Below the pieces are notes generated by a model, which was given only the letters and a program-made list of their open reading frames with translations, was not told the DNA's origin and did no database searches. From the IMG/VR virus record IMGVR_UViG_3300028025_001167, positions 1-31,812 of that record: a stretch of DNA of 31,812 nucleotides. One strand, given 5' to 3'. This DNA comes from a virus. Positions 1 to 31,812 of this stretch are shown here, piece after piece (position 1 is the first letter of the stretch; each line of letters opens with the position of its first letter). Both the position numbers and the translations under genes were made by a program.

Positions 1-347
1 GAGAATATTGATGTAGCCTCCCCCGTACTCGAAAAGCTAAATCTAGATGTATGACACAACAAGCCTATCTTGGTTGGAAGAAAGGGGTAATCAGTAAGGT
101 GTGTCTTTAAGTTTCATTGGGGCGCAAGGCGGCTACCCGATAGGTGATATAGGTAATTTTTTGTTTAGCAGAAAGCTGATTAGAGTGTCTGCCACAAGGA
201 GAGCCTACTTCTAGGCTTATTCTGGTTTATCTATGCGGCGTAGTCACTACGATGGCACACCAGCTTCCAAGCGGTCATGACAGGGGTTTTCAGGATTGCC
301 CTCTGTCGAGTCGGGTAGCATAACCGACACTCCTTGGTGACACTGTA
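1..347. other. Non-coding, hairpin-rich stretch
   Basis: I see no convincing gene in this stretch on either strand. The right part is rich in inverted repeats: AGCCTA-CTTC-TAGGCT at 202-217; an imperfect hairpin at 222-263 with CGTAG-TCA-CTACG at its tip; GACAG+GGG at 279-286 pairing with CCC+CTGTC at 299-307; and GTCGG at 310-314 pairing with CCGAC at 324-328. GAGTGTC at 183-189 is the exact complement of GACACTC at 326-332 and could close a multibranched fold around the first three hairpins; it competes with the fourth. This could be a structured RNA, a packaging or replication site, or regulatory DNA. If the genome is circular, the ATG that ends the window would read into bases 1-52 as an 18-codon ORF. 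Confidence 0.4.
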
Positions 348-572
348 CTAGAAGATCATTCCGTTATCAAGTGCTTTCAGAATCTTTCTTGCCTCCTGTT
401 TAGCACCCTTCTTGTAAACCTTGATTTTCCTTGGATTGGTGACGTTGCGCTTAGTTATTGTGTCTTGCGCTATCTTCTCTGCCAAACCCTTTTTCCAAGT
501 CTCTAGTGCTTGAGCCATCTCTTGCTTCTTGCGCTGATTAGCTCGTTCCTCTGGAGTCAATTCAATAGCCAT
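348..572 (-). CDS. Small basic, charged helical protein of unknown function
   Basis: This 74-residue protein is rich in Lys, Arg, Glu and Gln (starts MAIELTPEERANQRKK, ends ALDNGMIF), has no cysteines or membrane segment, and looks mostly helical. I do not recognise a family. It runs opposite to the neighbouring late genes and has its own promoter at 670-698. Its ATG follows directly on a T7 tract at the end of a predicted pseudoknot/terminator, and a possible Shine-Dalgarno AAAGGG (581-586, minus strand) sits inside the 3' arm of that structure. Expression would therefore be low unless the leader is opened or read through. A small nucleic-acid-binding or host-takeover protein is possible, but this is inference. 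Confidence 0.7.
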   Translation of the reverse strand: MAIELTPEERANQRKKQEMAQALETWKKGLAEKIAQDTITKRNVTNPRKIKVYKKGAKQEARKILKALDNGMIF

Positions 573-663
573 AAAAAAAGCCCTTTAGGAGTAGTACAGT
601 CGCACCCCCAAGAATCCTCAGGGCTGTACCACTTCTAAAAGACTTTCCTTGGTGCGATCAAGT
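573..663 (-). ncRNA. Pseudoknot/terminator leader RNA (left copy)
   Basis: On the minus strand, helix A pairs TCGCACC (657-651) with GGTGCGA (606-600). Helix B pairs 644-624 with 599-579, giving 21 positions with three G-U pairs and one central A-C mismatch. The order A5'-B5'-A3'-B3' is that of an H-type pseudoknot, with A3' directly abutting B3'. The loop after B5' starts CCCT and ends GGG, which could add a small third helix. Seven Ts (579-573) follow helix B, as in an intrinsic terminator, and the ATG of the 74-residue gene comes next. With the promoter at 670-698 the transcript would be about 90 nt. It could be a stand-alone small RNA, an attenuator, or simply a terminator whose helix A is accidental. 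Confidence 0.55.
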
Positions 664-669
664 GCCTCC

Positions 670-698
670 ACTATACAAGATTCCTTTTCTGATGTAAA
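670..698 (-). promoter_or_regulatory. Sigma70-type promoter for the left leader RNA
   Basis: On the minus strand, TTTACA (698-693) and TATAGT (675-670) are separated by exactly 17 bases. This is a good match to a host sigma70 promoter (5 of 6 at each box) and is expected to start transcription near 663, six bases before helix A of the pseudoknot leader. An inverted repeat TGATGT/ACATCA overlaps the -35 region and could bind a regulator. Confidence 0.65.
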
Positions 699-31238: not shown

Positions 31239-31694
31239 ATGAATGATTACTTTGCAAAATTAAGAGCCAAAAGAAAGGCTCTTGGCATTTGTCTCTCTTG
31301 TGGAAAACATCCTTCTCCATGCGAACCATGCAAAGAAAGAAATCGTGAGTACATGAGGAAAAAACGTGCTGGAATTCCGATTGAAAAAAGGAAACTTGAG
31401 TGGAAATCAAAAAGACACTACTTCCTGAAACACAAATTTGGTATCACTGAGATTCAGTACAACGAAATGTTAAAAAATCAGAACAATGCTTGTGCAATTT
31501 GCAAATCCACAGAATCTGGAGATGCAAGAACAACAAAATTATCAGTCGATCATTGCCATGAAACAGGCGTTGTTCGTGGACTTTTGTGTTCAGCTTGCAA
31601 CAAAGCAATAGGCTTTTTTAAAGATTCAACTGCAAACTTAAAAAATGCAATTGAATACTTAAAAAAAAATAATTGCACCACCAATTGTTTTTGA
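31239..31694 (+). CDS. HNH endonuclease, endonuclease VII-like, with captured C-terminal tail
   Basis: The 151-residue protein has two N-terminal zinc pairs (CLSCGKHPSPCEPC), a basic helix, CAIC, the catalytic VDHCHETGVVRGLLC and CNKAIGFFKD, as in the copy at 2612. It starts directly at the base after the upstream stop. It ends NNCTTNCF, about six residues longer than the first HNH protein, and this tail matches the end of the cysteine-rich protein (NCTTTCF) at protein and DNA level. This suggests the gene inserted at the 3' end of that gene. The DNA is A+T-rich. A homing role is inferred. Confidence 0.88.
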   Translation: MNDYFAKLRAKRKALGICLSCGKHPSPCEPCKERNREYMRKKRAGIPIEKRKLEWKSKRHYFLKHKFGITEIQYNEMLKNQNNACAICKSTESGDARTTKLSVDHCHETGVVRGLLCSACNKAIGFFKDSTANLKNAIEYLKKNNCTTNCF

Positions 31695-31714
31695 TGTATC
31701 ATCAAGTCGTTGCC

Positions 31715-31809
31715 GTGGAAAGCAATGAAGTAAGGCCACTTAATTCTACTCTCGCCCTTGGTCTAATCCGTAGGGTTTCCACCGAGGGTAGAGCTAAGTG
31801 GCTTTTTTT
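31715..31809 (+). ncRNA. Pseudoknot/terminator element (right copy)
   Basis: Helix A pairs GTGGAAA (31715-31721) with TTTCCAC (31776-31782). Helix B pairs 31735-31754 with 31783-31802, giving 20 positions with two G-U and one central A-C mismatch. A3' abuts B3', and the loop begins CCCT and ends AGGG, as in the left copy. Seven Ts (31803-31809) and ATG (31810-31812) follow. No stem sequence is shared with the left copy, only the architecture. Upstream, TTGATG-TAT-CATCAA (31691-31705) is a perfect small hairpin. No strong promoter is evident, so this may also end transcripts of the HNH gene. Confidence 0.55.
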
Positions 31810-31812
31810 ATG

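Follow-up and report, generated by a model that had tools for sequence, protein, structure and literature searches.

A probable overlooked class of phage control RNA in which a hairpin loop is predicted to kiss the loop of its own terminator

The virus record that forms the window, the whole stretch of DNA that we analysed, is 31,812 bases long and comes from a tailed phage; it encodes terminase, portal and head proteins. At the right end of this phage fragment, 3' of an endonuclease VII-like gene, the plus strand carries an element at 31707-31809, and on the minus strand at 573-662 we saw a second element of the same design written in different letters (Table 1). An initial annotation had described, in both copies, the order A5'-B5'-A3'-B3' with A3' abutting B3', a loop starting CCCT and ending GGG, one A-C mismatch in the middle of helix B, and T7; the coordinates bear this out, the 20-bp P2 stem of the right element having a single central mismatch (A31743.C31794) and the left P2 carrying an A.C mismatch too. 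It had also taken the helices for a plain interlocked pair, which they are not: an additional hairpin, P1, which had gone unreported, carries A5' in its loop. The A5'-B5'-A3'-B3' order is that of an H-type pseudoknot, but since relatives show A5' in a hairpin loop we dropped the plain H-type reading and regard kissing complex as the better term. Mimicry of a tRNA anticodon loop (a 7-nt loop with a U-turn) was dropped as well, as right-type loops have 8 nt and no anticodon layout. Both elements fold far better than shuffled sequences even without the tertiary pairing (z-scores of -5.6 for 31695-31812 and -4.4 for the left element), and both end as intrinsic terminators do, with a GC-containing stem and then a T-run.

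Table 1. Features of the two elements and their neighbouring genes, in window coordinates
Feature	Position	Strand	Remarks
Endonuclease VII-like HNH gene	31239-31694	+	Pfam PF02945, E = 1.8e-25; just upstream of right element
Right element, sigma70-like promoter	31673-31702	+	TTGCAC (31673-31678), 18-nt spacer, TATCAT (31697-31702); read from sequence
Right P1 hairpin TCGTTGC-CGTGGAAA-GCAATGA	31707-31728	+	Predicted RNA 5' end; arms 31707-31713 and 31722-31728; sequence and covariation
Right A5' GTGGAAA	31715-31721	+	Within P1 loop
Right P2 5' arm (B5') GCCACTTAATTCTACTCTCG	31735-31754	+	Pairs with 31783-31802; covaries
Right P3 hairpin CCCT..AGGG	31755-31775	+	In P2 apical loop; CCCT from 31755, AGGG ends at 31775
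Right A3' TTTCCAC	31776-31782	+	Perfect 7-bp complement of P1-loop 31715-31721; adjoins P2 3' arm directly
Right P2 3' arm (B3') CGAGGGTAGAGCTAAGTGGC	31783-31802	+	Intrinsic terminator together with T7
Right U-tract T7	31803-31809	+	Stem and T-run kept in all right-type copies
Terminal ATG	31810-31812	+	Probably no start codon
Left promoter TTTACA, 17-nt spacer, TATAGT	670-698	-	10/12 matches
Left P1 hairpin CTTG-ATCGCAC-CAAG	648-662	-	Sequence; covariation
Left A5' TCGCACC	657-651	-	P1 loop
Left P2	580-643	-	5' arm 643-624, P3 loop, A3' GGTGCGA 606-600, 3' arm 599-580
Left U-tract T7	573-579	-	Abuts next start codon (ATG 572-570)
74-aa basic ORF	348-572	-	Starts right behind left element

The putative right promoter was absent from our consensus promoter-scan list; its -35 hexamer is contained in the final codons of the endonuclease gene, whereas its -10 box begins 3 nt past the stop codon. 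Judging by the open reading frames of relatives, that gene is an optional insertion, present in locus L309 and missing upstream of the element in L181. The left promoter is near-invariant in relatives, where it precedes the left-type element or other structured RNAs. Behind the left element, the 74-aa ORF had no Pfam match, and other phages have a 151-aa HNH nuclease in its slot. Past this ORF, window positions 1-347 are noncoding and 87-92% identical in L009, L072, L027, L070 and L039; this stretch probably belongs to the packaging region or to a long structured RNA.

T7 followed by ATG had been reported at both ends, and while the letters are indeed present at both, only in the left type is the ATG a real start codon. 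L309, which has an element identical to the right one, allowed us to read past the window's final ATG, and instead of a gene we found ATGTCTCCACAGTTGCCGTACTCCACACGATAG after the T-run, that is, 10 codons and a stop. Elsewhere in the right type, copies read ATT, CAT or CTA at this place. With the 10-codon frame and an unconserved ATG, we rejected the terminal ATG as a probable gene start on the evidence of L309 and L181. Endonuclease genes lie beside some elements, namely the endonuclease VII/HNH gene of the window (31239-31694), a GIY-YIG gene at L185:4641-4994, whose start codon stands at about the usual distance behind the terminator, and an HNH gene on the minus strand at L023:8299-8754. 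We considered a homing-endonuclease-associated element and rejected it, as such genes adjoin these copies and are missing from others and so do not define the element.

We searched the window with a descriptor of the design (P1 hairpin, kissing helix of at least 6 bp, P2 stem and T-run), which matched at these two elements and nowhere else, the scores being 40 and 38. The best score among 400 dinucleotide-shuffled versions of the window was 35, and 289 of them had no match at all; an earlier version of the descriptor, applied to all terminase-relative loci then fetched, reached at most 31 in 4.35 Mb of shuffled sequence. The two window elements share one architecture far beyond chance, in keeping with the annotation's view that two 7-bp matches in register were unlikely, and equally good elements were not produced by shuffling. 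Because the descriptor was written after the element had been seen, compensatory changes in relatives weigh more than these scores.

The phage is one member of a large group of uncultivated phages: searching viral contigs by terminase found at least 595 related stretches, and named phages match the window terminase only at <60% identity. More copies were found in these relatives, which the annotation had proposed to scan, and they fall into three classes. Class I (the window's left type) lies on the minus strand just outside the small terminase gene, class II (the window's right type) ahead of the replication-initiator gene, and class III occupies the class II place in other phages. A pattern scan matched at least 120 stretches, and the fetched contigs contain at least 84 distinct class III sequences, and over all classes the design recurs ahead of replication and other early genes in >100 uncultivated phage contigs. 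Class III was also seen in two phage records from Manatee Spring and in one Betaproteobacteria MAG contig.

Supporting the predicted fold, the class II alignment has 92.7% of cells paired, versus 38-46% for slid versions, and ten pairs changed on both sides. There are five perfect 7-bp versions of its kissing helix (GTGGAAA/TTTCCAC, GTGAGAA/TTCTCAC, GTGGTAG/CTACCAC, GTTGCAC/GTGCAAC and GTGGTAA/TTACCAC), with double changes at three pairs of the alignment, in which the helix reads 89.8% paired as MAFFT shifts the kissing pair of L069 and L314 by one column. In P1 both partners changed at three pairs (C-G to U-A at column 10-19, for instance), and P3 (helix 4) has 94.6% of cells paired and no double changes. 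The 14 class I sequences are 100% paired (38-44% when slid), with five pairs changed on both sides; all cells of P1 keep standard pairs, two of them with changes on both sides, and the kissing helix, found as TCGCACC/GGTGCGA and TTGCGCC/GGCGCAA, is likewise 100% paired, with double changes at two pairs in four of the 14. In class III the P1 loop and its partner read TTGGCGG/CCGCCAA in 84 of 85 sequences (L135 has TGGGGAG/CTCCCCA), an invariance partly built in, as most of the sequences were fetched by a pattern that required a TTGGCGG loop; the invariance may instead reflect a protein partner. A second covarying kissing helix in class III, between the P1-P2 linker and the P3 loop, comes in ~20 matched versions. 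Judged from the alignments, the helices of each type, the kissing helix included, are kept by compensatory change.

The annotation's reading of the two window copies as compensatory change within one structural family holds as far as the architecture is shared and compensation operates within each type, but the comparison does not support the two copies being one element that diverged. Their helices differ completely in sequence, as had been noted, and between classes I and II we found no common sequence and detected no shared ancestry; only the right type and class III share a P2 motif and a promoter. For the left type the likeness may be convergence. Classes II and III look related in sequence, because class II subtypes are combined in the chimeric copies L315 and L321 and because a P2 core, CACATG..CAG, is common to class III and some class II copies; the promoter region at the class III locus (TTGCAA..TATGAT) also resembles that of the right element.

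The spacing of promoter and gene around the elements is regular. All 16 left-type copies have a -10-like hexamer 7 nt ahead of P1, and in all 21 right-type copies one ends 4-7 nt before P1. A -10 box directly precedes P1, and a U-tract directly follows P2. An ORF of at least 40 codons starts 0-14 nt past the T-run in 101 of 101 class III copies (8-11 nt in 91), and in the left type the start codon comes 0-1 nt past it (16/16 copies); at random positions such a start is found within 15 nt in 20%. Relatives that span the gap have two converging operons, the rightward one headed by II or III and the leftward one by I. The rightward operon encodes a replication initiator or primosomal protein and a RuvC-like resolvase, and for the genes that follow class III and right-type elements we found matches to replication initiator/primosomal PHROGs. 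In the right type, however, the next real gene, the initiator, is ~230 nt away, mostly with another conserved structured RNA in between.

This intervening region, which lies beyond the window's right end, comprises ~190 nt of extreme conservation between element II and the replication gene (L309:3885-4094, L028:4079-4302, 20 relatives), and its several hairpins vary mainly by compensatory changes (CACATGG/CCATGTG, ACACAG/CTGTGT) alongside frame-breaking indels; on this pattern it is a second structured RNA, and it had no Rfam match. The slots have other occupants. Behind the element I promoter, on the minus strand from ~440 nt upstream of the large terminase start, most sister phages (L044, L028, L049, L059 etc.) have another conserved structured noncoding RNA beginning AAACGGGGGCATCACCCACCCCTCTATGCGGTTGAGCCGACC, also without an Rfam match, and others have a third RNA beginning CACACTTCGGTGTCTTTGTCAGAGTC; both RNAs are long. 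In the replication slot L061 has int-alpA RNA (RF02996) at 2054-2122 with 38.6 bits against a gathering threshold of 35.8; this RNA or a seemingly divergent relative replaces II or III, just before the next start codon, in L061, L009 (3690-3763), L005, L051, L062 and L071. Variants in the same slot include a long terminator hairpin with the 9-bp pairing GAATCGACA/TGTCGATTC (L049, L305, L317, L327) and an 8-bp loop pairing, GCTGACCC/GGGTCAGC (GCCGACAC/GTGTCGGC in L316), with a short T-run (L302, L313, L316, L319, L320). The contents of the slots combine freely, e.g., I with II in the window, I with III in L023 and I with an int-alpA-like RNA in L009. We also noted a tRNA-like match (44 bits, 108-nt span) at L061:8197-8304, in the interval that separates the terminase genes from the class I promoter.

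The elements had no match in Rfam 15 at gathering, and permissive matches were chance hits to microRNA-type models; they gave no match to int-alpA RNA at its 35.8-bit threshold, and C4 antisense RNA (RF01695) was absent both from the gathering-level matches of the window and eight loci and from the permissive matches near the elements. Blastn against phages found no right-type or left-type element, one search matching the downstream RNA only, and blastn against plasmids found no class III. The elements, which may be called kissing-loop terminator RNAs of freshwater phages, are probably an overlooked class of phage control RNA that matches no described RNA family.

By comparison of the copies, the -10-like box, P1, kissing helix, long mismatched P2, inner P3 and U-tract would delimit an RNA of ~100 nt. 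We put at about even the chance that the element, as its sequence and placement suggest, is a phage RNA gene that doubles as a conditional terminator leader of the next operon. Most transcripts would end at the U-tract and yield a compact, stable small RNA, while expression of the gene behind it (HNH or 74-aa ORF; replication initiator) would depend on readthrough of the terminator or on a promoter concealed within the element. In the left type and class III the start codon follows the U-tract by only 0-14 nt, too short a distance to fit a separate promoter, which argues for readthrough, and the element would then be a built-in attenuator of the operon behind it. As A3' adjoins the 3' arm of P2, the kissing contact could form just before the stem closes and is placed to set its closure. 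In addition, since the P1 loop is complementary to A3', accumulated short RNA could pair in trans with nascent RNA and shift the choice between termination and readthrough, and would then restrain replication and early genes in a dose-dependent way. This action in trans is the least certain step. We found no anti-terminator pairing in the elements, and the terminator stem looks unconditional. Given the ~230-nt gap, a direct leader role appears weaker for the window's right copy, and for the right type generally, than for class I or III. It is unlikely, though worth stating, that these are members of a widespread, hitherto undescribed RNA superfamily in which a small RNA stores its own trans-pairing partner and kisses either itself or another copy, so that termination ahead of the replication and early operons senses the number of phage genomes in the cell and the interchangeable slot modules define superinfection groups in freshwater phages.

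A possible though doubtful alternative is that the elements act solely as structural small RNAs in trans, the kissing fold binding and titrating a protein of the host or of the phage, in the service of host takeover or counter-defence, with a terminator that merely ends the RNA and a readthrough that is incidental to compact genome packing. A promoter of its own at fixed spacing to P1, loops that are all paired internally and so leave little free sequence for antisense, class III loop letters that hardly vary, and a right-type element that stands apart from the next gene would all suit such an RNA, as would slots that are swapped for unrelated structured RNAs and mix freely between phages. Against it, the tight start-codon distances of class III and the left type point to a role for the next gene.

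Quite improbable is an antisense or immunity RNA of the P4 CI or P1 C4 kind, which would pair with early transcripts of its own phage and shut them off, the internal kissing being a stored inactive form. That int-alpA RNA fills the same slot in sister phages fits this idea, and in L135 alone a further copy of the P1-loop sequence TGGGGAG immediately precedes the next start codon, where A3' (CTCCCCA) could cover the repeat. However, in the main classes we found no consistent excess of A5' or A3' loop 6-mers in the 400 nt downstream, and the elements match neither of the Rfam models for C4 and int-alpA. It is very unlikely that the element is just a strong terminator that insulates neighbouring operons, with loop pairing that only aids terminator efficiency or blocks 3' exonucleases: the terminator features are good and lie at operon borders, but a dedicated promoter, P1, the second kissing helix of class III and long-term covariation would go unexplained. 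Chance complementarity around two terminators is hardly credible, for although 7-bp matches are short and the descriptor was made after the fact, none of 400 shuffled windows reaches 38 and compensatory changes in three classes refute it.

The elements add an RNA architecture backed by strong covariation, in which a hairpin loop kisses the terminator loop of the same RNA (with two kissing helices in class III), which is found in >100 environmental phage contigs with no Rfam 15 match and located where replication switches on. Easy to build, they lend themselves to testing if intrinsic termination is tuned by tertiary RNA contacts, and they raise the question of whether exchangeable RNA modules serve uncultivated phages in controlling replication or in superinfection immunity.

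Compared with a classical intrinsic terminator, the elements have the same GC-containing stem and U-tract but differ in their long stem, large structured loop and 3' side that is predicted to pair with an upstream hairpin loop. Int-alpA RNA takes the same genomic slot before the replication gene in sister phages, and the elements do not match its model. In phage P4, as outlined in PMC4825925, replication genes are controlled by premature termination through CI RNA, so that an RNA heading a replication operon and control via transcription termination are points of likeness; CI RNA in that outline arises by processing of a longer transcript, and its pairing partners are seqA/seqC, whereas the elements have a promoter and terminator of their own. 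Paired target sites of the CI kind were not evident, as no consistent 6-mer excess was seen 400 nt downstream and only L135 had an evident P1-loop repeat. The likeness to IsrK of the Gifsy-1 prophage is closer in arrangement: its promoter gives a short terminated RNA, and some transcripts read through into the next genes, making it both a small RNA and an mRNA leader (PMC4825925). Like IsrK, the elements are phage RNAs potentially both terminated and readthrough leaders, linked to regulatory phage genes, and the IsrK arrangement is compatible with a start codon 0-14 nt past the T-run (class III and the left type). IsrK differs in host group and sequence, neither 'kissing' nor 'pseudoknot' is found in the text of its paper, and its trans pairing was demonstrated experimentally (PMC4825925), while trans pairing of the elements is conjectural. 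In ColIb-P9 (IncI), by the title of a paper cited in PMC10724649, a 5'-UUGGCG-3' loop motif and a pseudoknot lie upstream of the replication initiator gene repZ. Going by that title, the class III P1 loop UUGGCGG contains the repZ motif, and both pair downstream, ahead of a replication initiator gene. In the repZ system competition between the pseudoknot and an antisense RNA sets copy number; the pairing partner is close to the ribosome site of repZ, and a leader peptide and an antisense RNA of separate origin take part. Class III differs in having its partner in the terminator loop, with no antisense gene seen and no plasmid match. By these analogies the resemblance to IsrK, P4 CI and repZ is one of working, not of membership: the elements appear to be of a known kind, the phage small RNA or leader, and what seems new is an unusual tertiary contact, well supported by covariation.
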